Part shown: positions 3,575-28,773 of the stretch, piece by piece | Layout of the letters: every line of letters starts with the position of its first letter | How positions within the stretch are numbered: position 1 is the first letter of the stretch | Source: a virus | Virus record (IMG/VR): IMGVR_UViG_3300042564_005535 | Location: 1 to 28,827 of that record | Reading direction: 5' to 3' (one strand) | Length of the DNA: 28,827 bases | Made by a program: the position numbers and the translations under genes | The notes under the pieces: model-generated | What the model was told of the DNA's origin: nothing | Databases searched by the model: none | Seen by the model: only the letters and a program-made list of their open reading frames with translations

Positions 3575-4144
3575 CTATTTTTGATCAGAATCGCTGATTT
3601 TTTTAATATATTCGTTCATGTCAGTTTTTATTTTTTCCATTTTTGTGACATGTTCCTTCTGTTTAGTATTTATATCAGTCATTATCTTAGTAATCTTAGC
3701 TGAGTTTTCACCCATTCGATTATTAATATCTTGAATTTTAGTATTAACAGAGAGTTTTGTACTAGGTTCCGTAGATAAACTTAACTCTTTTTGAAAGTCA
3801 TCTAACTTAACTTTATCTTCTGCTTTAGCTGTTTGTAAGTCATCTACCTCTTTATGAAGTCTAGCGATTGTTAAATACTCAACTAAGAAAGGATTTCTAT
3901 CTTCACCACTCTGAACATCTGTTTTACCTAAAATATTTTCAAGTTCAGACTCTATTACCTCATTAGTTTTCTTTTTTTCAGTTTTAACATAAACTTTGTC
4001 AATAAGAGGTTTCTTTTGAGTATATTCTTTGAATTGATCTTGAATAGTGTTCATCTTTTCTTTAGCCATCTTAACATCAGGTTGATCTGTTGGACTAACA
4101 TCAAAAGATTCTTTAAATTTCTTATATTTTACTAAATGTATCAT
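3575..4144 (-). CDS. Coiled-coil protein with capsid-targeting-like N-terminus
   Basis: A 189-residue protein of unknown function. It is highly charged and rich in Lys, Glu, Asp and Gln with few aromatics. Its long heptad-like stretches (about residues 90-185) suggest an extended coiled coil. The first residues, MIHLVKYKKFKESF, resemble the short N-terminal motif found on several other proteins in this window (hydrophobic residue 4, aromatic residue 7, then a Glu-Ser). Its ATG overlaps the stop of the upstream 1005-residue gene by four bases (ATGA), which suggests translational coupling and a shared role. It sits just upstream of the sheath gene, which has its own promoter. A virion or prohead-core protein is possible, but no family was recognised. 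Confidence 0.7.
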   Translation of the reverse strand: MIHLVKYKKFKESFDVSPTDQPDVKMAKEKMNTIQDQFKEYTQKKPLIDKVYVKTEKKKTNEVIESELENILGKTDVQSGEDRNPFLVEYLTIARLHKEVDDLQTAKAEDKVKLDDFQKELSLSTEPSTKLSVNTKIQDINNRMGENSAKITKIMTDINTKQKEHVTKMEKIKTDMNEYIKKISDSDQK

Positions 4145-10434: not shown

Positions 10435-12567
10435 ATGGCTAAAGAGCTAATGGAAAAACAAATGGTCTTTACTACTAAGTTAGTAGATGAGGCAACAGAT
10501 AAGATAAATGATGGTATTGTTGTTAAACGATATCAAAATCCATGGTTGAAGAGTGAAGTAGGTCTTAGAAGACAAGGTGTTACTTTTAAGATGACTGCGG
10601 ATGAACAACAAGAGTATATTAGATGTGCGGTCGATATTCACTACTTTGTAGAAAAGTATTGTAAAGTAAAAAGAGAAGATGGTTCAGTAGGATCTATACT
10701 ACTAAGAGATTATCAGAAGGAAATACTTGATAATTTTGTTAATAGTAGATTTAATATATTAATGGCTTCTCGTCAAGTTGGTAAGACAATATCAGCGGCA
10801 ATTTTCATGTTACATAAAATACTATTTGATAACGATAAGAATATAATGATTGTTGCCAACAAAGGTGATACATCAGTAGAAATTGTTGATAAAATTAAAT
10901 CAATTTATTCATTACTGCCTTTCTTCTTAAAACCAGGTATTAAAACTTGGAATCAAAAATCATTAACATTTGAAAATGGTTGTAGAATTAAAACATCAGC
11001 TAGAACAAAGACTCCAGCAATTGGTTTTACGATTGACGTACTTTACTTAGATGAGTTTGCTCACATTCCATCTAATATCATCGAACCATACTACACGGCC
11101 GCCTTTCCAACGACAGCTGCGATACAAAACTCAAAGATTATTATCACATCTACACCAAATGGTATGAACTTATTCCATAAGTTACTTACAGATGCTGAAA
11201 GACCCGATGGTGATCCACAAAAGAATAACTATAAGGCGATGAGAGTTTACTGGTATCAAGTACCAGGTCGTTTTGTTAGTTATTTAAGATTAAATAATCA
11301 TAAACTATATGAATATGGAGTAACCAAGGAGGAGATATTTGATTTATGTAAAGATAAATGGGGAGGTAAGACTAAAGTAGAAATGGATTATAACTCCGAT
11401 TTACAAAAAGATATAATACACATCTATAATAATGAGTTCTGTTCAGATGATGAAGTTAAATCTTTAATGTTTATTGATTCAAAAGGATATGAAGTTCCAG
11501 TAAGAGCATTAGCAGAGGTAACAACTTGGAAAGAAGAGGCTATAAAAGATATTGGTGGTGAAGACGCATTTAACCAAGAGTATGGATTAAGATTTATTAA
11601 TGCAAGTAAATCACTTTTAAGTGAAGCAATAATTGATGAGTTACTGAAAAGTAAGAAAAATTATATATCAGAAGAAATATTTGAGTTTAATAAGTTGAAA
11701 TTTAGCTACAAAGACTTAAAATGGATTGACGATGATGATATTTTTATACCAATTAAAAGAAAAGAGTATAAATTTGTAATATCTGTCGATATATCAGAAG
11801 GACTGGGACAAGATTACTCAGTGATCAATATATTTAAGATAACAAATAAATCGAGAGAATTAATAGAATCTCAAAGAGCTTCTTATAAATCTATAGTTGA
11901 CTTTTTCAGATTAGAACAAGTTGGTATATTTAGAAGTAATTTAGTATCAGTTAAACAGCTGTCAGAATTTTTATATGTTTTAGCATTTGAGTATCTAAAT
12001 CCGGAAAATGTTAAAATTGTATTAGAGTTGAATAACTATGGAAATACTTTACTCGCCGAAATGCCTCACGTTTTAGAGGGAAATAATGAATATGGTTCTG
12101 CTATCTTTGCTAGATACAAACATAGAGTAGATGCAACTGAAGAAAAAGTAGGTCTAAAAGTAGGAGAAAATAAAAACTTAATGGTTAAGGATTACCAAGA
12201 CCTAATGTTATCAAAAGGATTCTCTATAAATAACGAAGAAACTATAAGAGAGATAACAACATTTGTTAAACATACAACAACATCAGGGAATACAAGATAC
12301 GCAGCTGATGTTGGACATGACGACTGTGTTATGACCATTGTGAATACAACTTCTATTTTTCCTAAAAATGAATATAAGGAAATGGTAGAAGAATGGGCCA
12401 ATAAAAATACTGATAAAGAATTATTAGCCTATATCAACCATTGTTTAAATAATATAGATTTTGTAGAAGGTGTAGATTATGGACAAGTTCTAAAAGTTAG
12501 AAAACAGTTTATGAACCGAAACAAAAATACTTATAAAAGTGGGGATTGGTTTGGTAGAAAGTTATGA
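10435..12567 (+). CDS. Terminase large subunit (gp17-like): packaging ATPase and nuclease
   Basis: Packaging motor that docks on the portal, pumps DNA into the prohead and cuts the concatemer. It is 710 residues, against 610 in T4. ATPase domain: Walker A SRQVGKT (112-118), Walker B VLYLDEF (202-208) with catalytic Glu207, and coupling motif TSTPNGM (238-244). C-terminal RNase H-like nuclease: Asp452 in SVDISEGLGQDYS, Glu531 in LELNNYGN, and Asp629-Asp630 in GHDDCVM, all intact. Its 3' end overlaps the stop of the convergent clpS gene by six bases. A late-type element lies 18 bases upstream. The antisense frame at 12192-12401 is a shadow. Confidence 0.95.
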   Translation: MAKELMEKQMVFTTKLVDEATDKINDGIVVKRYQNPWLKSEVGLRRQGVTFKMTADEQQEYIRCAVDIHYFVEKYCKVKREDGSVGSILLRDYQKEILDNFVNSRFNILMASRQVGKTISAAIFMLHKILFDNDKNIMIVANKGDTSVEIVDKIKSIYSLLPFFLKPGIKTWNQKSLTFENGCRIKTSARTKTPAIGFTIDVLYLDEFAHIPSNIIEPYYTAAFPTTAAIQNSKIIITSTPNGMNLFHKLLTDAERPDGDPQKNNYKAMRVYWYQVPGRFVSYLRLNNHKLYEYGVTKEEIFDLCKDKWGGKTKVEMDYNSDLQKDIIHIYNNEFCSDDEVKSLMFIDSKGYEVPVRALAEVTTWKEEAIKDIGGEDAFNQEYGLRFINASKSLLSEAIIDELLKSKKNYISEEIFEFNKLKFSYKDLKWIDDDDIFIPIKRKEYKFVISVDISEGLGQDYSVINIFKITNKSRELIESQRASYKSIVDFFRLEQVGIFRSNLVSVKQLSEFLYVLAFEYLNPENVKIVLELNNYGNTLLAEMPHVLEGNNEYGSAIFARYKHRVDATEEKVGLKVGENKNLMVKDYQDLMLSKGFSINNEETIREITTFVKHTTTSGNTRYAADVGHDDCVMTIVNTTSIFPKNEYKEMVEEWANKNTDKELLAYINHCLNNIDFVEGVDYGQVLKVRKQFMNRNKNTYKSGDWFGRKL

Positions 12568-12846
12568 GTTAACTTCCATAGTAACAGATAAACCGGCAGT
12601 TTTCAACTTTTCTTTCATAATTGAAATTGTATCATAATCACCATACTTAACATCACATTTACCGTTAAAGTGTACGATATGAGCACATTGAGAAGCTTGT
12701 TCTTCATCATGTTTACATATTTTCATAAGACAAGTTATAACCCAATCAAATGTATTATAATCATCATTATGTAAGTCTAAACGATATGGTTTAGATAGAA
12801 TTTCTTCAACTTTTGATTCTGTTTTTTTCTTAGTAATTGTAGCCAT
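12562..12846 (-). CDS. clpS: ClpS-like adaptor of the Clp protease
   Basis: A 94-residue protein matching ClpS, which binds the N-terminal domain of ClpA/ClpC-type unfoldases and presents substrates with destabilising N-terminal residues. The core runs from YRLDLHNDDYNTFDWVI (about residues 21-37), with the NDD signature at 27-29 that contributes to the substrate pocket, through QCAHIVHFNGKCDVKYG to KLKTAGLSVTMEV at the end. The HFNGKCDVKYGDY stretch resembles ClpS of Bacteroidota rather than that of Proteobacteria, which suggests capture from a host of that group. It lies 10 bases downstream of the HAD gene, in one operon. The phage may redirect host proteolysis. A short basic N-terminal extension precedes the domain. 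Confidence 0.88.
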   Translation of the reverse strand: MATITKKKTESKVEEILSKPYRLDLHNDDYNTFDWVITCLMKICKHDEEQASQCAHIVHFNGKCDVKYGDYDTISIMKEKLKTAGLSVTMEVNS

Positions 12847-14448: not shown

Positions 14449-15096
14449 ATGAAGCATATTAGAACATATGAAAATTATCGTGTTAAGAAGAACAGAGAAG
14501 AGATTATCAAAGAATCAGTTCTTCAAGTAAACGATATCTATAAAGTTAAAACTATGATTGATATTCCTCAATCTTTAATCAATGCTTATGTTAAGAAGGT
14601 AAAGGATACAACTGGTAAAAACTTACGTCAATTCTTTGGTGATGTTGATATCGCAGAAGAAATCGTTAAATATATTAACATGAACAACTTAGATGTTGAG
14701 AAAATACCTGGTGGAGCTATAATGGGCGGTGCCCAGGGTCAAGTACAAGGTCAGGGACAAGCTCAACCACAAGTACAAACTGAAGGTGAAGCTCAACCAC
14801 AAGCTCAAACTCAAGAGGTACCTCAAGCTCAACCACAAGCTCAACCAGAGGCTCAACCACAAGGACAAGCTCAACCACAAGCTCAAACTCAAGAAGCACC
14901 ACAAGGTGAATTCGAAGAACCACAAGCTCAAGGACAGGCTCAACCACAGGCTCAAGGAGAAGGACAAGCTCAACCACAAGGACAGGCTCAAGGACAAGCT
15001 CAAGGACAAGCTCAAGGACAAGCTCAAGGACAAGCTCAAGGTGAAGAAGAGGAAGAGGAAGAAACTGAAGAAGGTGAAGAAGAATTACCACTTTAA
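14449..15096 (+). CDS. Tagged Q/A/P-repeat protein with acidic tail
   Basis: A 215-residue protein of unknown function. The N-terminus MKHIRTYENY resembles the T4 capsid-targeting sequence. Residues 1-85 form a small, probably helical domain. Residues about 95-195 are low-complexity repeats built on QAQPQ, QGQA and QAQTQ, ending in four perfect QGQA copies. The C-terminus is a Glu-rich tail (EEEEEEETEEGEEELPL). Tag, disordered repeats and acidic tail recall prohead-core or scaffold proteins such as the acidic gp67 of T4, but no homology was seen. Three other frames are also open across the repeats, including a Ser-Leu antisense frame; they follow from the repeats and are not genes. It has its own late-type promoter. 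Confidence 0.8.
   Translation: MKHIRTYENYRVKKNREEIIKESVLQVNDIYKVKTMIDIPQSLINAYVKKVKDTTGKNLRQFFGDVDIAEEIVKYINMNNLDVEKIPGGAIMGGAQGQVQGQGQAQPQVQTEGEAQPQAQTQEVPQAQPQAQPEAQPQGQAQPQAQTQEAPQGEFEEPQAQGQAQPQAQGEGQAQPQGQAQGQAQGQAQGQAQGQAQGEEEEEEETEEGEEELPL
14989..15036 (+). repeat. 12-bp tandem repeat, four perfect copies
   Basis: CAAGGACAAGCT occurs four times head to tail inside a longer field of degenerate 6- and 12-bp repeats (about 14745-15045). The unit is a multiple of three, so copy-number change would lengthen or shorten the QGQA tract without shifting frame. Confidence 0.9.
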
Positions 15097-15123: not shown

Positions 15124-15420
15124 ATGAAAAAAGTAAACAGTTTTAGATTATTTGAAAGTATCAATTATGGATCTTGGATATCTTGTGATGAACAACTTCC
15201 AGATGAAAATGAATTTATTTTAGGATATTGTGGTCCTTATAATGAAATACAAAAATCCGCCCCACATTGTGATGTAGTTAGATTAACACGATTACAAACT
15301 ACAGGAGGGTCTTATTCATCTAATAATAAAAAAGATTATGAATGGAAAACTTTTGGTCCTAAAACATATTTTGGCCAAGAAATAAGTCACTGGATGCCAC
15401 TTCCACAAGTTCCAAATTAA
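15124..15420 (+). CDS. DUF551-type protein with tag-like N-terminus
   Basis: A 98-residue protein matching the small DUF551 family common in phages: WISCDEQLPDENEFILGY near the N-terminus (Trp18) and ISHWMPLPQVP at the C-terminus (residues 87-97) are the hallmark ends of the domain. Its function is unknown. The first 12 residues, MKKVNSFRLFES, precede the domain and fit the Met-Lys-x-hydrophobic ... aromatic ... Glu-Ser pattern shared by other proteins here. DUF551 proteins usually start close to the WI motif, so the 17-residue lead looks added. It follows the Q/A-repeat gene by 27 bases on the same transcript and is closed by a terminator. Confidence 0.8.
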   Translation: MKKVNSFRLFESINYGSWISCDEQLPDENEFILGYCGPYNEIQKSAPHCDVVRLTRLQTTGGSYSSNNKKDYEWKTFGPKTYFGQEISHWMPLPQVPN

Positions 15421-15488: not shown

Positions 15489-16100
15489 ATGAAATTCATT
15501 AAAACATTTGAAAGTTATAATGCTGATACACTAATCATAATTGATGTACAGAAATCATTTAAGAAATTCTTTTCGGAGATGTATCTAAATGAGTTGAAAA
15601 AATATTGTAAAAACTTTCAAAGTGTTTATCAAATATGGGACAATCACGTCGATGGTAAGAACGTAGATAAAGATTATCTATATGATGACAATCCTGATAT
15701 CCCTGTTCACAAAGATCTTTATCACTTTCCAAATCAAAAAAAACTTATAGAAAAAAGATATAACTATGACGTTGATGCTGATTTCTATAAAAAGATTTTA
15801 GATAAAGATGTTTATGATAAAATCAGTAAAATGGAAGAAGAAAAATCATTAAAGAAAGGTGATATCTTCAATACTAAAGAAGGAACTATTATTACTTTTA
15901 TAAACAACAATCATGTTTGGTTCCATTGTCCTATCAAACTTTATGAATTATTAATTTCACTAAAAGGCAGAGAAGTTACAATTGTTGGAGGTGCTGACTC
16001 TGAATGTTTAGAAGATGTAGTTACAACTGCTGAAAGTATTGGAGTTAAAATTAAAAGAGATTATAAGTATATTTATACTGCTAGTAGTTGTCCTATTTAA
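15489..16100 (+). CDS. Isochorismatase-like cysteine hydrolase with tag-like N-terminus
   Basis: A 203-residue protein. The start is ATG 15489, since the upstream in-frame extension lies within a terminator hairpin. MKFIKTFESY is the clearest copy of the shared N-terminal tag. The body resembles the isochorismatase/nicotinamidase fold: TLIIIDVQKSF with catalytic Asp19, QIWDNHVDG in the position of the metal-binding Asp-x-His region, and VTIVGGADSECLEDVVTTA with the nucleophile candidate Cys173 followed by a helix, as in the family's G-x-x-T-x-x-C-V motif. The catalytic Lys was not placed. Substrate unknown; nicotinamidase is one option. If the tag is functional, the enzyme would be packaged in the head. 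It converges back-to-back with gp25. Confidence 0.7.
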   Translation: MKFIKTFESYNADTLIIIDVQKSFKKFFSEMYLNELKKYCKNFQSVYQIWDNHVDGKNVDKDYLYDDNPDIPVHKDLYHFPNQKKLIEKRYNYDVDADFYKKILDKDVYDKISKMEEEKSLKKGDIFNTKEGTIITFINNNHVWFHCPIKLYELLISLKGREVTIVGGADSECLEDVVTTAESIGVKIKRDYKYIYTASSCPI

Positions 16101-20201: not shown

Positions 20202-20567
20202 ATGTACCTAAATAATAAAGATTTGTATGTAGAAGTAATAGTATCTAAAGCACAAGGAAAACTAACAAGAAACGCAGAAAAAATGTTAGAGCTACTAGCT
20301 AAAAAGACGATAAAAAAAATGAGATATTGGTCTAACGATGATAAGTTAGATTGTTACCAATCAGGATTATTAGATATGTTCCAAAACTGGTATAATTTCA
20401 ACGAAGATAAATCTGTTAACGCATTCGCATACTTTACAGAAGTATTTAAGAGAGGTATAGCAAAAGGTTATAACGAACTTTATAAGAAAAAAGGTGATAA
20501 CGACCACTTAATTAAATTAATCTCAATTGAAGGATCAAATGACGGAATGGGACTCCACTCACTCTAA
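20202..20567 (+). CDS. Late-transcription sigma factor (gp55-like)
   Basis: A 121-residue protein. It resembles T4 gp55, the small sigma-like protein that directs host RNA polymerase to late promoters: YLNNKDLYVEVIVSKAQGKLT at the N-terminus parallels T4 YVNNKELLQAII, and NFNEDKSVNAFAYFTEVFKRG (about residues 64-84) parallels the gp55/sigma region 2 helix NFDETKYKNPHAYITQACF. T4 gp55 is 185 residues. The C-terminal end here is shorter (GSNDGMGLHSL), and the N-terminus may be extended by frameshifting from 20146. It is consistent with the recurrent TTAATATATAT elements being its promoters. The assignment rests on motif similarity recalled from the family. Confidence 0.75.
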   Translation: MYLNNKDLYVEVIVSKAQGKLTRNAEKMLELLAKKTIKKMRYWSNDDKLDCYQSGLLDMFQNWYNFNEDKSVNAFAYFTEVFKRGIAKGYNELYKKKGDNDHLIKLISIEGSNDGMGLHSL

Positions 20568-20709
20568 TATCAATCTTAAAACATTTGATATAGTTATGAC
20601 ACCATCATTTGGTGCTAGCATACCAATCAAGTCTCGTTTCTCTTCTAAACAAAAAAGACGAAAGGAAAAAATTCAAAACATATTTAAAATAAAAAAACCA
20701 CTCATTTGA
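20539..20709 (+). CDS. Small basic protein overlapping the sigma gene's 3' end
   Basis: A 56-residue reading frame starting at ATG 20539 inside the sigma gene (29-base overlap, +1 frame) and running 142 bases past its stop to a TGA inside the terminator hairpin. The C-terminus is strongly basic (SSKQKRRKEKIQNIFKIKK), suggesting nucleic-acid binding. The space would otherwise be empty leader-less DNA before the terminator, and the codons look normal for this genome. It could be co-translated with the sigma factor. Alternatively it could be made as a +1 frameshift extension of it, or be fortuitous. No family recognised. Confidence 0.5.
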   Translation: MTEWDSTHSNINLKTFDIVMTPSFGASIPIKSRFSSKQKRRKEKIQNIFKIKKPLI

Positions 20710-20724
20710 GTGGTTTTTCTTTTA
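20692..20724. terminator. Bidirectional terminator between convergent genes
   Basis: AAAAACCACTC-ATTT-GAGTGGTTTTT has A- and T-tracts on both sides, so it can end the sigma transcript (plus) and the glutamine synthetase transcript (minus). Confidence 0.85.
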
Positions 20725-20733
20725 TCATTAATA

Positions 20734-21828
20734 TTATAATTGAGATTCAACTTCAGAATAAACTGTTTCTAACATTTTAAGTGAAACTTGATAAGGATCA
20801 CAGTTAGAAGCTGGTCTTCTATCCTCAAAATATCCTTTACCTTCAATAATAGCTTGTGCAGGTATTCTAATTGAAGTATCTCTTGTACTATACCCAAATG
20901 AGAAGTCATGAATACTTGATGTTTCGTGTTCTCCAGTCATTCTTTGGTCATTACCAAGTCCATAAACAGAGATATGGTCATTATGTCTTTCTTTTAACTT
21001 TTCCATAGTTTCTTCGATAAGTTTAAGACCACCTTCTTCTCTCATTTCTTTAGTTGAGAAGTTAGCGTGACAACCAGAACCATTCCAATCTCCTTTTAAT
21101 GGTTTAGGGTGTAAAGAAACATTAACATTATATTTCTCAGCAACTCTTTGTAATAAATATCTAGAAACCCATAATTGGTCAGAACCATTTAATGATTTAA
21201 CAGGACCAATTTGATATTCCCATTGACCCAACATTACTTCAGCATTGATACCAGATATATCTAATCCAATTTCAATACACATATTCATGTGTTCTTCAAC
21301 AATATCTCTACCAGTAACAGTGTCTGCTCCAATACCACAATAGTAATCTCCTTGAGGTCTTGGTGATAAACCATTTTGTTCAAATATTTCAGGTGTAAAA
21401 CCTAAAGGAATTCCAATTCCATCTCCAAATGGTCTTAATGGCTTATGTGTTAAAGTATATTCTTGTTCCCATCCAAACCAAGGTAGTTCAGATTTATCCA
21501 TATCTTCAGTAATTGATAATTCATTTACTTTTTGTAAAAGTGCTCTTCTATGATTACTTTCGTGTACAGAACTATCTGGATTAAGAACTTCACAAAAAAC
21601 TAATCTATCATTTTCACCTCTAAAAGGATCTCTTGATACAAAAACAGGTTTCAATAAACAATCTGTATTTTTTCCTCTTCCGGATTTAGCTTGTTTAGTT
21701 GAGCTACCATCAAAAGACCATACTGGATAATCTTCTGGTGACATACTGTCCACATTTTGAATTTTTGTTTTACTTCTTAGTTGTTGAGGTTGTGACCCAT
21801 CTAGCCAAATATACTCTAATTTCATCAT
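20734..21828 (-). CDS. Glutamine synthetase, type II (beta-grasp, eukaryotic-like)
   Basis: ATP-dependent ligation of ammonia to glutamate. It is 364 residues, the size of GSII (about 340-370) and much shorter than GSI or GSIII. The N-terminal beta-grasp domain has EYIWLDGS and PVWSFDGSSTKQA. The catalytic domain has PWFGWEQEYTL (metal-binding Glu residues), GINAEVMLGQWEYQIGP, HPKPLKGDWNGSGCHANFST, SIRIPAQ and GYFEDRRPASNCDPY, so the active site looks complete. Two ATGs are adjacent (21828 and 21825) and either could be used. It is transcribed alone, closed by a bidirectional terminator. A phage-borne GSII is an auxiliary metabolic gene, probably captured from a Bacteroidota or eukaryote-like source. 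Confidence 0.95.
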   Translation of the reverse strand: MMKLEYIWLDGSQPQQLRSKTKIQNVDSMSPEDYPVWSFDGSSTKQAKSGRGKNTDCLLKPVFVSRDPFRGENDRLVFCEVLNPDSSVHESNHRRALLQKVNELSITEDMDKSELPWFGWEQEYTLTHKPLRPFGDGIGIPLGFTPEIFEQNGLSPRPQGDYYCGIGADTVTGRDIVEEHMNMCIEIGLDISGINAEVMLGQWEYQIGPVKSLNGSDQLWVSRYLLQRVAEKYNVNVSLHPKPLKGDWNGSGCHANFSTKEMREEGGLKLIEETMEKLKERHNDHISVYGLGNDQRMTGEHETSSIHDFSFGYSTRDTSIRIPAQAIIEGKGYFEDRRPASNCDPYQVSLKMLETVYSEVESQL

Positions 21829-21903
21829 AATAGTTTTTTTTTATTTTATATCATTTATCAAACTTTGTTTATTATCAATAATATATTTAGTAAATTTTTT
21901 AAT

Positions 21904-22203: not shown

Positions 22204-22537
22204 TATTATTATATACACATTTTCTTTACTATTCATATGGAGTAATGTCTACTACGTCATCAATTATAATAGATTAGACAAAAGATTTGCTGAAAGAGAT
22301 AGAAATTCAAAAGTTGATTTAATTTACTATGTAACAAAAGTTCTTTTTTGGATATGGTTAGTAGTTGGTTTATTCACCCCGATAAAGTATATTTTTATGA
22401 TAATGATGGGAATAGGTTTGATAAGAATTCCAATGTATCATATAAGTAAAAATCTAACTTCAGTTTGGTTTAGATTAACACCTGTTTTTTATACTATATT
22501 AATGATACAAATTTTAATTGAGATATTTAAACATTAA
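22196..22537 (+). CDS. Small integral membrane protein
   Basis: A 113-residue protein. I use ATG 22196 (MIDIIIYTFSLLFIW), which overlaps the previous gene's stop by 8 bases. There are three hydrophobic segments: about residues 2-20 (DIIIYTFSLLFIWSNVYYV), 45-75 (VLFWIWLVVGLFTP and IFMIMMGIG) and 93-110 (PVFYTILMIQILIEIF), with short charged loops (NRLDKRFAERDRNSK). It belongs in the inner membrane. Function unknown; a holin is possible from size and topology, but nothing specific supports it. The 3' end overlaps the convergent gp4-like gene by 11 bases. Confidence 0.65.
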   Translation: MIDIIIYTFSLLFIWSNVYYVINYNRLDKRFAERDRNSKVDLIYYVTKVLFWIWLVVGLFTPIKYIFMIMMGIGLIRIPMYHISKNLTSVWFRLTPVFYTILMIQILIEIFKH

Positions 22538-23054
22538 ATTTGTTTAAGTGTTGTTCTGTTATTATTATGAATTCATATCCTTTTTTATTACACCAATTAA
22601 TCATAGTTTCCCATTTGTTTTTGTTTTTATAAGCCATTTTTAGGTCATACTCGAAACTTTTTAGTTTTTTAGCACCCTTTTCAGGAACACTTAACTTACC
22701 TTCATTAAGAGCGATAACCATATTATATTCTTTCATTGGTTTAACTTCAACAACTATTTGTTTTAGAGTACCATCACTTAATCTCATCTCATAATAAAAA
22801 TCAGGATAATAACAATGTTCTTTGATTTTAGAATCACCATTATTGAAATGTGTCATTTGATAAGGTATTTTTAAACACTCAGCTCCCCACTTTGTTATAG
22901 CTGGATTATAATCTAACCAGTGCATTATTTTCTTTTCCCACGAACTTCTAAAATAAACTCCACCTTGTGTATTTAATTTTATAACCTTATCTTTGTTATT
23001 AGGAACATAATTTCCCTGGTTATAGTTTTTATTGTTAGGTTTAGAATTTAACAT
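22527..23054 (-). CDS. Head completion protein / nuclease (gp4-like)
   Basis: A 175-residue protein that resembles T4 gp4 (gp50/gp65), needed to finish DNA-filled heads before tail joining. The aligned core is YFRSSWEKKIMHWLDYNPAI (about residues 34-53; T4 YRSNWEKFFFEWLDKNPEI), then WGAECLKIPY, YYPDFYYEM and IVVEVKP. Pro84-Asp85 ... Glu103-x-Lys105 is a PD-(D/E)XK nuclease signature, with Glu40 upstream as the possible extra ligand. The first 30 residues are an Asn/Lys-rich extension. The start is divergent from the next gene across 38 bases holding one shared TATATATA element. Assignment is strong from motif order. Confidence 0.88.
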   Translation of the reverse strand: MLNSKPNNKNYNQGNYVPNNKDKVIKLNTQGGVYFRSSWEKKIMHWLDYNPAITKWGAECLKIPYQMTHFNNGDSKIKEHCYYPDFYYEMRLSDGTLKQIVVEVKPMKEYNMVIALNEGKLSVPEKGAKKLKSFEYDLKMAYKNKNKWETMINWCNKKGYEFIIITEQHLNKFNV

Positions 23055-23802: not shown

Positions 23803-24198
23803 ATGAAAAATATGAAAAAATTTAACGAGTCTTGGTTTTCTAAAAAAAGTAACCCTGAAGAAATAACAGATATAACTCCAAGAGGAGTTTCAAGAACTTC
23901 TATGCCAGCAGAAAGAAATACATCATCTGGATTATCAGAGGAAGAATTAGAAGAGTTAAAAAGAAATAGTTCATCATCTAAGGTTGAAACTAAAGTTGAT
24001 ACTTATTTTATGCAAGAAATATCAGATAGACTTTTTGGCCCAGATTCTGAAGGTTATATACAAGCTATAAAAGAATTGAATCTAAAGTTCAGACCAAGAG
24101 AAGGAAGAACAGCTAATCAATTCTATGATCCATCTATATCAGATGAAAGAAGACATAAAGAAGATGAAATAAATAGAAATATATTAAAAGACGAGTAA
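23803..24198 (+). CDS. Small tagged protein upstream of the portal gene
   Basis: A 131-residue protein with no recognised family. MKNMKKFNES carries the shared tag (hydrophobic residue 4, Phe7, Glu-Ser). An in-frame ATG at 23812 would give MKKFNES, but the longer start keeps Phe at position 7 as in the other copies. The rest is hydrophilic and charged: a Ser/Thr/Arg-rich stretch, helical SEEELEELKRN, then IKELNLKFRPREGRTANQFY and an Arg/Glu-rich end. It is probably partly disordered. The stop codon lies in the loop of the following terminator. Its place beside the portal gene fits an internal head protein. Confidence 0.7.
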   Translation: MKNMKKFNESWFSKKSNPEEITDITPRGVSRTSMPAERNTSSGLSEEELEELKRNSSSSKVETKVDTYFMQEISDRLFGPDSEGYIQAIKELNLKFRPREGRTANQFYDPSISDERRHKEDEINRNILKDE

Positions 24199-24272: not shown

Positions 24273-25976
24273 ATGGCGTATAATGATGCAGGAAATTCAG
24301 CAAATTTCACTAATATAAATTCAGCTATAGAGAATAAAGGCTTATTCAGTCGAATTCTACGAAACTTATCTAACTATGGAATGAACTATGATGATATGAT
24401 CATCAGAAATCAAGTTGGTATAGGTATTAACGAAGATCCATACGCTGCTAGAGGAAACTCAATGTATGACTTTTTCTCTCAAAGAGCTGTTGCTTCTGTA
24501 TTAAATAGAAAGTCAATTCCTTACTTAGATAAAGCTTATGCTGATAAAAGAAGAATCCTAAGAGAGTATTCTATTAAAGATGAGATTAGAGACTTCGTAT
24601 CAACAATAACAGATGAGACAATCGTTTATAACGATGAGAAAGACTTCTGTTCACCAAGAGCTTTATCAAATGACTACTCACAAGAGATTAAAGATAAATA
24701 TCAAGAATATTTCGAGAAAATATATAATAAATTTGGATTCTCTGATAACATCACTGCATGGTCAATGATGAGAGACTTTATGATTGATGGATATTTAGCA
24801 ATTGAGATTATATATGATGATAAAAAGAAAAATATCATCGGATTCAATAGACTAAGACCTGAGACTTTAGTTCCTGCTTACGAACCAAATATTGGTCACT
24901 TATGGATTCAGTTTCCAGAAGATCCACAATTAAGAAGAATATTCTTAGACTCTCAAATAATTTACATTTCATATTCAACACAAAATGATTATTCAGAAAC
25001 ATCTTATGTTGAAGGTTTAATTAAACCATATAATCAGTTAAAAATTCTTGAACAAACAAGAATTATGTTTAACATTATTAACGCAACTGTTTACCAAAAG
25101 TTTACTATTCCGATTAAAGGTTTATCAAGACAAAGAGCTGAAGAACAAATTGGTCAATTAATACATGATTATTCAGAAGAAGTAGAATGGGATGAATCTT
25201 TAGGTACTTTACAAATTAACGGAGCTAAACACTTACCTTATAACAAACAAATTTGGTTTCCTGAGGGAGATGCTGGTACACCAAATATGGAATTAGTATC
25301 ACCACAAGGACATGACTTAAATGATGAAACTATGTTATCTTGGTTTTACAAAGCACTTAAAAGAGCTTCAAAAATTCCAATGTCAAGATTTGAAGGTGAA
25401 AATGGTGGTGGTAATTTAATTACAGATGCTGCTGAGATGACAAGAGATGAGATTAAGTTTCACAACTTCATTAGTCGTTTAAGAGCTAACTTCAAAGAAA
25501 TAATTGTTAAACCTATAAGATTACAGATGTTAATTGAGTTTCCTGAGTTAAAGGATGACGAAGTAATGTTAAATCAAATGGATATTCAATTCTATACTAA
25601 CCAAGTATTTGAAGAATGGAAAAAGATAAACAATCTAGCTAAAAAATCCGAAATCGTTGGAACTTTACTTGGAGTAATGAATGGTGAGAAACCTTACTTC
25701 CACATAGAATGGATTATGGATAATGTATTTAAGTTAACACCAGAAGAAAAAGCAGAAAATCAAAAGTATTGGGCGAAAGATCCATCTACACTTGGAGCAG
25801 CACCAGAAGGAGGAGCACCTGCTGAAGGTGGAGCACCGGTTGAAGGTGGTGGAGAAGCACCTGCTGAAGGTGGAGAAGCACCAGCACAAGGAGGAGCACA
25901 AGCAGCACCAGAAGAACCACCTGCTGAAGGTGGTGGAGAAGCTCCAGCTGAAGGTGGTGGAGAATTTGAATTTTGA
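24273..25976 (+). CDS. Portal vertex protein (gp20-like)
   Basis: Dodecameric ring at the head vertex through which DNA is packaged and ejected. It is 567 residues (T4 gp20 is 524). The T4-type portal pattern is visible: an N-terminal region with SVLNRKSIPYLDKAYADKRR, clip/stem segments with MRDFMIDGYLAIEIIYDD, GFNRLRPETLVPAYEP, YVEGLIKPYNQLKILEQTR, the helix after KALKRASKIPMSRFEGENGGG, and FHNFISRLRANFKEIIVKPI. The last 60 residues are an Ala/Glu/Gly/Pro repeat (units such as APAEGG) ending in GEFEF, an extension not expected in T4. It has a strong late promoter and a bidirectional terminator. Confidence 0.93.
   Translation: MAYNDAGNSANFTNINSAIENKGLFSRILRNLSNYGMNYDDMIIRNQVGIGINEDPYAARGNSMYDFFSQRAVASVLNRKSIPYLDKAYADKRRILREYSIKDEIRDFVSTITDETIVYNDEKDFCSPRALSNDYSQEIKDKYQEYFEKIYNKFGFSDNITAWSMMRDFMIDGYLAIEIIYDDKKKNIIGFNRLRPETLVPAYEPNIGHLWIQFPEDPQLRRIFLDSQIIYISYSTQNDYSETSYVEGLIKPYNQLKILEQTRIMFNIINATVYQKFTIPIKGLSRQRAEEQIGQLIHDYSEEVEWDESLGTLQINGAKHLPYNKQIWFPEGDAGTPNMELVSPQGHDLNDETMLSWFYKALKRASKIPMSRFEGENGGGNLITDAAEMTRDEIKFHNFISRLRANFKEIIVKPIRLQMLIEFPELKDDEVMLNQMDIQFYTNQVFEEWKKINNLAKKSEIVGTLLGVMNGEKPYFHIEWIMDNVFKLTPEEKAENQKYWAKDPSTLGAAPEGGAPAEGGAPVEGGGEAPAEGGEAPAQGGAQAAPEEPPAEGGGEAPAEGGGEFEF
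25795..25973 (+). repeat. Low-complexity AEGG-type repeat in the portal C-terminus
   Basis: Degenerate units of GAAGGTGGAGAAGCACC type (GCTGAAGGTGG and variants) encode APAEGG/GEAPAEGG repeats. All unit lengths keep the portal frame. The plus frame at 25792-25989 is a shadow of this repeat. Confidence 0.8.
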
Positions 25977-26431: not shown

Positions 26432-27383
26432 CTTGTATGTTTAATTTTTTTCCAGTAACTGGGTCATAATTTAATATTAACAACTCAACTCCTTTAGTTT
26501 GTTCTTTCTTTACGTCAGAGTTATTACCACCTTGAGCAGAACTTCTAAATACTTCTTTCTCAGTCCAAATATATTGGTCTCTTGGTAACAATTCCTCTAA
26601 TAAAGGAAAATAATAATAAGATAATGACCAACGAGATTTAGATTTCTTAATCAACTCTAATAATCTTCTATGAGAAGCTGGTCCAAATACACCATCAGTG
26701 TCAGAACCATACCAGAATAATCTCTTAGCGTCATCTTCACCTTTAGCCTCATTAAAACGAGCATATGGTGGGTCTAAATAGATGTAAGTATCATCTGCGT
26801 CATATTTAGTAATAAGTTCTTCAAAATCAATATTAGTAAACTCTTTAATTGATTTTAACTTATTTGTATATTTGTTCTTTTTCAACTTATCAATAAGAAC
26901 TTCTAATTTCAAACGGTCTTTATCTTTCTTATAACCATTAAAACCAGCACCACGAGGGTAAACTGAATTGTGAGCTGATGTAATCAAGAAAGCATAAATT
27001 GCAGCTTTTCCAAAGTTACCAATCTCAAAGTCCATATTATCAAGAAATTCATTCTTTTGATATTTCTTATAAATTCCTTTATAGAAGTCCCATTTTTTCA
27101 GTGGATCTGTCTCATCAGTTTTTAATAAAGTTTCTTTTAATCTTTCTAAGTATTTAACAAAGGTTTCAGGTTCTGAACAACACTTATATAAGTTCACCTG
27201 GTGACGATTTTTATCATTGTAAACAACTGTATCGAATTTAAGAGAATCGTCGTCCATATACGTTCCCATAGAGCCTGAGAAAGGTTCTAAATATGTTTTG
27301 ATTCCAGTCTTAGGAATCTTTGAGTTTATAAACTCTTGGAATACTGATGAACTCTTGCCACCAAAATATGAAATACATGCCAT
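26400..27383 (-). CDS. Dam-like DNA N6-adenine methyltransferase
   Basis: A 327-residue methyltransferase of the D12/Dam class. The S-adenosylmethionine-binding region is at the N-terminus (ISYFGGKSSSVFQEFINSKI, then TYLEPFSGSMGTY), and the catalytic DPPY motif is at residues 204-207 (YIYLDPPYARF), giving the N-terminal FGG ... DPPY order typical of this class. A target-recognition region probably lies between them. It may protect phage DNA from host restriction or mark it for packaging. The ATG overlaps the homing-endonuclease stop by one base (TAATG) and the DUF1653 gene overlaps its 3' end. No partner endonuclease is adjacent except the LAGLIDADG enzyme. Target sequence unknown. Confidence 0.9.
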   Translation of the reverse strand: MACISYFGGKSSSVFQEFINSKIPKTGIKTYLEPFSGSMGTYMDDDSLKFDTVVYNDKNRHQVNLYKCCSEPETFVKYLERLKETLLKTDETDPLKKWDFYKGIYKKYQKNEFLDNMDFEIGNFGKAAIYAFLITSAHNSVYPRGAGFNGYKKDKDRLKLEVLIDKLKKNKYTNKLKSIKEFTNIDFEELITKYDADDTYIYLDPPYARFNEAKGEDDAKRLFWYGSDTDGVFGPASHRRLLELIKKSKSRWSLSYYYFPLLEELLPRDQYIWTEKEVFRSSAQGGNNSDVKKEQTKGVELLILNYDPVTGKKLNIQDGLSATETEI

Positions 27384-28204
27384 TATTTTCTATATTTAAT
27401 CTTTTCTTTAGTTATACTAATTACTTTTTCGAAAGTTTCTTTTTTTCTTTTAAGGCATATGGTTGAATCTTTGTATAGAAAATTATAAATATTCTCAACA
27501 TCTAATAACCCACCCCAATCAACTACATGATATGTTCCTTTAGGACATCTTATTTTATTCCTACCTGATAGATTAGCAAATAATACTAATTTATCATAAT
27601 AATCTTTTATAAAATCATAACTACCCGAACATATGTTAACCTGTCCTCTTTGTTGATTGTCTCTTTTATCCGTTCTCAATGTAATACAACCATCACCATC
27701 AAAAACACCTCTCATAAAATGATTTTGTAAATTATCAGGAATGTTTGGATATTTAACAACCATTGTTTTATTTGAATGGATTCCTAGCTTTTCAAGATCA
27801 CTCTTAGTCTTATTAGACGATATACTAAAGATTGAAATGTTTCTATTCTTAGATGTAAATACAACTCCATCTGAATTAATATACTTTTTAAATTCATATA
27901 ATATATATGTTTCCTTCTGTACTATCTTAATAGTATTTGTCTTATCAGAGATACAACCATCAGCAACAATAAATCCTAAAAAATAAGCTTTATCCTCAGT
28001 ATCTATAGATTCAAAGTAATCTTCATCAAAATTATATTTAACAACTTTAGATTTTTGTTCAATATTATTTAACTTTAATAAGTTATAATATTGTCTTAGA
28101 GAAATATCAAATTTTTTTGATATTTCTTTTTCTGTTGTTCCTATTTTTCTTTGATTTATAATTTCTGATTTTTCAATATCAGAAAGGTCTTTTAATTTTC
28201 TCAT
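27383..28204 (-). CDS. LAGLIDADG homing endonuclease (free-standing)
   Basis: A 273-residue mobile endonuclease. The N-terminal helix-turn-helix-like part (IGTTEKEISKKFDISLRQYYNLLKL, about residues 21-45) is followed by two LAGLIDADG helices: AYFLGFIVADG (73-83) and FMRGVFDGDG (163-172), each ending in the catalytic acidic residue. Two copies in one chain imply a monomeric enzyme cutting an asymmetric site. It is a stand-alone gene, not visibly inside an intron or intein. Its TAA overlaps the methyltransferase ATG (TAATG), so the element is fitted tightly into the operon. A TATATATA element lies 4 bases before the ATG. Such enzymes spread by cutting related phages that lack them. Confidence 0.88.
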   Translation of the reverse strand: MRKLKDLSDIEKSEIINQRKIGTTEKEISKKFDISLRQYYNLLKLNNIEQKSKVVKYNFDEDYFESIDTEDKAYFLGFIVADGCISDKTNTIKIVQKETYILYEFKKYINSDGVVFTSKNRNISIFSISSNKTKSDLEKLGIHSNKTMVVKYPNIPDNLQNHFMRGVFDGDGCITLRTDKRDNQQRGQVNICSGSYDFIKDYYDKLVLFANLSGRNKIRCPKGTYHVVDWGGLLDVENIYNFLYKDSTICLKRKKETFEKVISITKEKIKYRK

Positions 28205-28266: not shown

Positions 28267-28773
28267 TTAATTGTTTTTATTTTTAATTATATCTTCTAAT
28301 GATGGTCTTGTCTTTTGTTTTAAATTTAATCGAATATCCATAAGAATTTTTCCTAAATTATTTTCACCATCTTTACATTTATTACAAGTACAGACACCCC
28401 AGAAATTGTCGTGCCACCAGTTCCCTTCAGTTAACTCCATATCACCAGTACTTAGTAACATTTCGGATAACTTTGGATCTTTGAATTTTTCAGTAACACC
28501 CCATTTCATAAATTCTAATTTCTTAGAGTCCCAATCTTTTCTAATTTTAAGTTTACTGCCTATTTTCTTAACGTCTCCAGGACTTTTGATTATAGCAATC
28601 AGTTCTCTGAAGTCAGCAGCGGTATAATAACTACCATTTAGAAATTGCATTTCAGTAACTTTCATTGCAACGTAGTAGTGTTCAACAGACGGATATGTTA
28701 TGCCCTTGTGTTCTATCCTACAAGGATAGAAATTAGATAAAAATCCATATTTACCGTCAAACTTATTAACCAT
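28267..28773 (-). CDS. NADAR-family protein (YbiA-like; ADP-ribose N-glycosidase fold)
   Basis: A 168-residue protein with the full NADAR pattern: FDGKYGFLSNFYPCRIEHKG (about residues 5-24), YPSVEHYYVAMK (27-38), a central AIIKSPGDVKKIGSKLKIRKDW, KLEFMKWGVTEKFK, LLSTGDMELTEGNWWHDNFW (cut here) and LGKILMDIR. The invariant Glu of SVEH and the GN-x-WHD-x-FWG motif are present, so it should be active. Family members hydrolyse N-glycosidic bonds in ADP-ribose-linked compounds, and some reverse guanine ADP-ribosylation. In a phage, undoing host ADP-ribosylation defence such as DarT is plausible. It ends 62 bases before the homing-endonuclease start and has no terminator of its own. Confidence 0.9.
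   Translation of the reverse strand: MVNKFDGKYGFLSNFYPCRIEHKGITYPSVEHYYVAMKVTEMQFLNGSYYTAADFRELIAIIKSPGDVKKIGSKLKIRKDWDSKKLEFMKWGVTEKFKDPKLSEMLLSTGDMELTEGNWWHDNFWGVCTCNKCKDGENNLGKILMDIRLNLKQKTRPSLEDIIKNKNN

Follow-up and report, generated by a model that had tools for sequence, protein, structure and literature searches.

The presence of a glutamine synthetase (GS) gene among the head genes of a virus raises the question as to whether it encodes a working enzyme, whether it is a viral gene or a host loan, and what it does during infection. The gene lies in an IMG/VR virus record of 28,827 bp, the whole of which was analysed and is here called the window. The preliminary description of this DNA had claimed a complete type II GS (GSII) in a T4-like phage.

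20734..21828, minus strand: type II glutamine synthetase gene, from the ORF and its translation (364 amino acids, no internal stop)

The ORF agrees with that claim. Both GSII domains, the beta-grasp N-terminal and the catalytic C-terminal, are present by Pfam (Gln-synt_N PF03951, 36.6 bits against a cut-off of 33.4; Gln-synt_C PF00120, 55.3 bits against 24), and GlnII is the top NCBIfam model with an E value of 1e-120. The score of 402.7 bits lies below the 500-bit equivalog cut-off of the GlnII model NF041605, an NCBI naming rule that is narrower than GSII; because GSII controls from dog (420.6), yeast (441.3) and Bacteroidota (402-408) also fall below 500 bits, this shortfall says nothing against GSII, and the cut-off was dropped as a membership test. 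In the PDB, GSII structures take all the top places (E 1e-99 to 1e-91), with GSI at about 1e-8. An AlphaFold2 single-chain model (mean pLDDT 89.6, pTM 0.91) matches GSII folds with Z scores of 39-46 and GSI folds with about 30-32, including maize GSII at Z 46.1 (1.5 A over 338 residues) and human GSII at Z 45.2.

The preliminary description had also raised substitution of active-site residues as a possible objection, and alignment revealed none: at each of the 22 substrate, metal and catalytic positions mapped the residue is that of mammalian GS, and 15 rechecked active-site positions are invariant in 46/46 aligned GSII from phages and cells. Strong purifying selection is evident from dN/dS values of 0.07-0.09 against close relatives. 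These data indicate that the ORF is a real, intact and selected GSII which, as far as sequence can tell, is catalytically competent with ordinary chemistry. In length, domains, active site and fold (Z 44-46) it resembles the known GSII/GlnII enzymes (maize 2d3a, human 2qc8, Streptomyces 4bax, Bacteroidota GlnII).

The description of the phage as T4-like was likewise borne out by a set of T4-type structural, sigma and clamp-loader genes in the window, namely portal gp20, large terminase (TerL), gp25, clamp loader, late sigma factor and a gp4-type head-closure protein.

24273..25976, plus strand: T4-type portal protein gp20 (Pfam Portal_T4, E 1.6e-57)
10435..12567, plus strand: large terminase, 79.7% identical to that of LR745206 (635 kb) and 75.5% to that of LR756502 (642 kb)

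Complete genomes of 634, 636, 642 and 735 kb have been reported, all genomes above 634 kb in that study being assigned to the Mahaphage clade with predicted Bacteroidetes hosts (Al-Shayeb et al. 2020, PMC7162821). We infer that LR745206 (634,780 bp) and LR756502 (642,428 bp) are Mahaphage genomes of that study. The window's phage falls in the Mahaphage group by near-complete synteny with the 634-642-kb members and by TerL identities of 80% and 76%, and since TerL is this close to 635- and 642-kb genomes the window is in all likelihood part of a phage genome of several hundred kb. Its Bacteroidota host is a prediction from the literature. The window's phages are referred to below as lineage A, and a second group (e.g. 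L180, L185, L189) as lineage B.

A number of other features were recorded in the window and its relatives. A ClpS-type adaptor (12562-12846, minus strand; Pfam ClpS, E 2.2e-18) adjoins the terminase gene and is conserved in lineage A; such a phage adaptor could redirect host ClpAP proteolysis. The portal C-terminus near 25800-25976 (plus strand) is a long tail of low complexity with EGGGEAPAE repeats, which is unusual for a portal protein. Similar short N-termini (MKFIKTFESYN, MKNMKKFNESW, MKHIRTYENYR) occur on proteins of unrelated content (3575-4144, minus strand; 14449-15096, 15124-15420, 15489-16100 and 23803-24198, plus strand) and are reminiscent of T4 capsid-targeting sequences, with similar starts in related huge-phage proteins. 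One of these products (14449-15096) has a long low-complexity tail of Q/A/G/E repeats and another (15489-16100) resembles by eye an isochorismatase/nicotinamidase-type hydrolase (IIIDVQKSF, SECLEDV), for which Pfam and PHROG gave no match. A NADAR-domain protein (28267-28773, minus strand; E 5.8e-26) belongs to a family for which processing of ADP-ribose derivatives in jumbo phages has been proposed (PMC7824862), and a LAGLIDADG-type homing endonuclease gene of which only some close relatives have a copy (27383-28204, minus strand) lies between the NADAR and Dam genes. Full DnaK is encoded by all three complete huge genomes searched and by two other large records (L056, L057, L058, L145, L043).

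The immediate surroundings of GS are defined by the following features.

20202..20567, plus strand: gp55-like late sigma factor gene, the conserved neighbour on the 3' side of GS (phrog_234; 81-100% identity in lineage A)
20691..20720, found on both strands: bidirectional intrinsic terminator separating GS from the convergent gp55-like gene
22527..23054, minus strand: gp4-like head-closure protein with a TnsA-type nuclease fold, the conserved neighbour on the 5' side (phrog_218, E 8.5e-31; Pfam Tn7_TnsA-like_N)

Terminator-like sites number 6 in the GS region against 1.3 expected. With the terminator at 20691-20720 on one side and a divergent gene starting upstream of GS on the other, the map is consistent with the single-gene transcript proposed earlier. 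The lineage-A order of portal, gp4, two small ORFs, GS, gp55-like sigma factor, clamp loader and gp25 is kept in nearly all lineage-A contigs, of which there are dozens, and in the 635- and 642-kb Mahaphage genomes, where the slot is occupied by the same GS. As this arrangement recurs across independent contigs and complete huge-phage genomes, a chimeric contig, and with it the phage-host joint that had been raised as a concern, can be ruled out.

A search for the gene in related phages, as had been suggested, was performed by anchoring on the sigma gene rather than on GS in the best-matching 80 loci. The downstream head gene was seen in 73 of the 80 and GS fills the slot in 71 of these 73, a figure that describes close kin and not all Mahaphages because the 80 are the best-matching loci, some of them perhaps near-duplicate contigs. 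GS is thus near-fixed in a slot among the head genes in the window's phage lineage. The GS-less loci L288 and L297 keep the neighbouring ORFs, with a short empty junction in L288 and a different small ORF in L297, and when the same phage collection was searched for GS nothing matched in the 636-kb relative (TerL 45%). Since two phages of the lineage and this relative do without it, GS is not essential.

Upstream of GS two candidate control elements were identified.

21860..21870, minus strand: dyad AAAC-AAA-GTTT, AAACAAAGTTT, candidate operator or promoter box for GS, conserved upstream of lineage-A GS
21843..21850, minus strand: TATAAAAT, candidate -10 element 9 nt downstream of the dyad, from sequence inspection and conservation in related loci

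The dyad has a 3-bp centre and is found in either orientation. It is present exactly in 14/23 lineage-A representatives (0.02 expected after shuffling) and within one mismatch in 18/23 (0.39 expected), and is missing from both GS-less loci although these keep the divergent neighbour. Lineage-B GS has a different leader. RNA structure in the GS leader is weak (z -1.64) and a sigma-70 promoter scan gave no excess over the shuffled background. A late-type motif, TAATATATA, occurs 11 times in the window against 2 expected, with none of 100 shuffles reaching as many, and lies upstream of structural genes (13441, 14415, 15476, 16484, 18744, 24241 and others); it may be the late-promoter motif recognised by the gp55-like sigma factor. 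It is absent from the GS leader though it precedes many neighbouring structural genes. An operator or promoter box for GS is the best interpretation of the dyad, whose presence where the late motif is absent suggests non-late or regulated expression, in which GS would be transcribed from its own non-late promoter. A wider regulon marked by the dyad was considered and rejected: genome-wide counts were barely above those of a control pattern and the other hits were mostly inside ORFs, with two intergenic.

In order to place the enzyme among its relatives we compared it with phage and cellular GSII. A maximum-likelihood tree of 75 rows gathers 39 phage representatives into one clade with a support of 100/100. 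Other phage GSII fall outside this clade, and well-supported branches require the virus label to have been gained or lost three times or more; the GSII of the 735-kb phage is a different enzyme, nested among cellular, mainly Bacteroidota, sequences. On this phylogeny the window GS is a member of an old virus-only GSII clade. A gene taken from a Bacteroidota or eukaryotic host, the frame implied by the earlier proposal of a phylogeny with their GSII, is at odds with this placement and with the movement of GS between phage lineages described below. Cellular GSII is common in Bacteroidota, occurring in about 70 of the 395 genomes searched, and this would favour recent acquisition from a host, or an assembly that joins phage to host DNA. 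However, the closest cellular GSII among the matches listed is only about 52% identical to the window GS by BLAST and the closest in the 395 Bacteroidota genomes reaches 58% by an HMMER-based measure, and on these identities of about 52-58% recent host capture was rejected. The 39-row virus clade and the fixed synteny across independent contigs and curated genomes also speak against such an origin, and we regard it as extremely improbable.

The gene has a further history within viruses. In lineage B it is flanked by that lineage's own genes, portal/holin-like on one side and prohead protease and capsid on the other. Mean GS and portal identities are 76% and 82% among lineage-A pairs and 66% and 75% among lineage-B pairs, whereas A-B pairs share a mean of 65% in GS (range 57-76%), 20% in the portal and 23% in TerL. 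Because GS evolves faster than the portal within each lineage yet stays alike between A and B, descent alone does not account for these identities, and the gene must have been exchanged between two deeply separated lineages of large phages. The best tree nests lineage A inside B; the AU test does not reject a tree in which B is kept as one group (p 0.117).

The viral clade is about 45-58% identical to known GSII and differs from it in two loops, one enlarged in all members and the other in nearly all.

21676..21687, minus strand: insert 1, residues ~48-51, which lengthens by 3 or more residues the active-site loop that lies between the human D63 and D76 positions
21355..21447, minus strand: residues 128-158, a loop enlarged by EQEYT-YYCG spacing that falls where plant GSII has the 'teeth' of its inter-ring contact

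Of the 38 clade members in which the active-site loop could be read, 37 have a loop of 18-21 residues; L200 has 15, as do all cellular and other phage GSII in the comparison. From EQEYT to YYCG the segment measures 37-56 residues in 39/39 clade members versus 27-34 in all other sequences compared. In plant GSII, segments 136-141 and 146-152 have been named as the teeth joining two rings (PMC8668187) and similar inter-ring loops have been described (PMC3975887); the enlarged loop of the clade covers both sets. It is also where the AlphaFold2 model has its lowest pLDDT (59-74). The enlarged loops may change the assembly or control of GS, and the larger of them would do so by altering pentamer-pentamer contact in the decamer, built from two pentameric rings, that is typical of GSII.

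What the enzyme does for the phage is addressed by its active site and by the gene content of related phages. We consider it probable that an intact GSII of an old virus-specific clade, kept under selection in huge T4-like phages of the Mahaphage group, makes glutamine that feeds host synthesis. During infection GS would form glutamine from host glutamate, ammonium and ATP, working outside the host's control of its own GS, and host amidotransferases would use the glutamine to build nucleotides and amino acids during replication of a several-hundred-kb genome. Ten related phage records were searched; as several are incomplete, failure to find a gene carries little weight outside the three complete huge genomes. 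Nine of the ten encode the ribonucleotide reductase large subunit, which agrees with the glutamine-supply role put forward in the preliminary description, a plausible one. Class I glutamine amidotransferase (PF00117) was found in only 2/10 and class II (PF13522) in 0/10, on which grounds a phage-encoded glutamine-consuming pathway was set aside. Because amidotransferases are this scarce the consumer must mostly be the host, and in the simplest reading host purine, pyrimidine and amino-acid synthesis would be the beneficiary of the raised glutamine.

The scarcity of phage-encoded glutamine users in most related genomes could also be taken as a sign that the protein is a GS-fold amidoligase with another acceptor, such as a polyamine, methylamine or protein, and not a glutamine maker. 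GS-fold relatives of this kind exist (GmaS and GGputSyn, both weak matches to the window GS), and the active-site loop carries the clade-specific insert. The equivalents of D63, S66, Y162 and E305, which we take to be the ammonium-site residues, are conserved in the window GS and argue for ammonium as the acceptor; the ammonium- and glutamate-site residues are identical to those of mammalian GS, and both sequence and fold place the protein much nearer GSII than the other-acceptor families, so that a different acceptor appears very unlikely. The same lack of glutamine-dependent enzymes in most of these phages would also suit a main benefit in the control of host nitrogen state, of glutamate or ammonium levels, or of ATP, instead of glutamine for nucleotides, given that GS is a hub of nitrogen sensing in bacteria. 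Genes for PII and the ammonium transporter Amt were found in 0/10 related records, however, and no gene of the neighbourhood ties GS to regulation. The suggestion that the enzyme resets the host's nitrogen signalling accordingly found no support, and we think a benefit of this kind unlikely. Glutamine supply to host synthesis remains our preferred reading.

The mere presence of GS in a phage is not new, as jumbo-phage GS was already reported in 2025-26. In the accessible parts of these reports GS is carried by nine moraphages (PMC12619734) and glnA is listed for jumbo phages (PMC13037316); these are likewise large aquatic phages with predicted Bacteroidota hosts, and lineage B could be moraphages. 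Those same parts give no GS type, tree, insert or transfer. The word 'glutamine' is absent from the main text of the 2020 Mahaphage study (PMC7162821), and the phrase 'phage-encoded glutamine synthetase' had no match in the full-text open-licence literature, where we also found no description of a viral GSII branch, an enlarged ring-contact loop or a near-fixed head-gene slot.

Metabolic genes of phages are usually viewed as recent, patchy loans from the host. The window GS behaves as a viral gene, with an old clade of its own, near-fixation in one lineage of huge phages and presence in a second, unrelated lineage, and the viral enzyme is remodelled at an interface that tunes GSII activity in plants. 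More tentatively, large Bacteroidota-type phages may share a pool of remodelled GSII in which an altered ring interface escapes host control, expression comes from an own non-late promoter and nitrogen assimilation is near-core, a wider picture that we hold to be possible if doubtful. The clade can serve as a marker for GSII-bearing huge phages in metagenomes, and it raises the testable question of huge phages that run nitrogen assimilation with a virus-evolved GSII of different assembly and control. Were that wider picture true, nitrogen assimilation would be near-core in some of the largest phages and not an occasional acquisition of a host gene.
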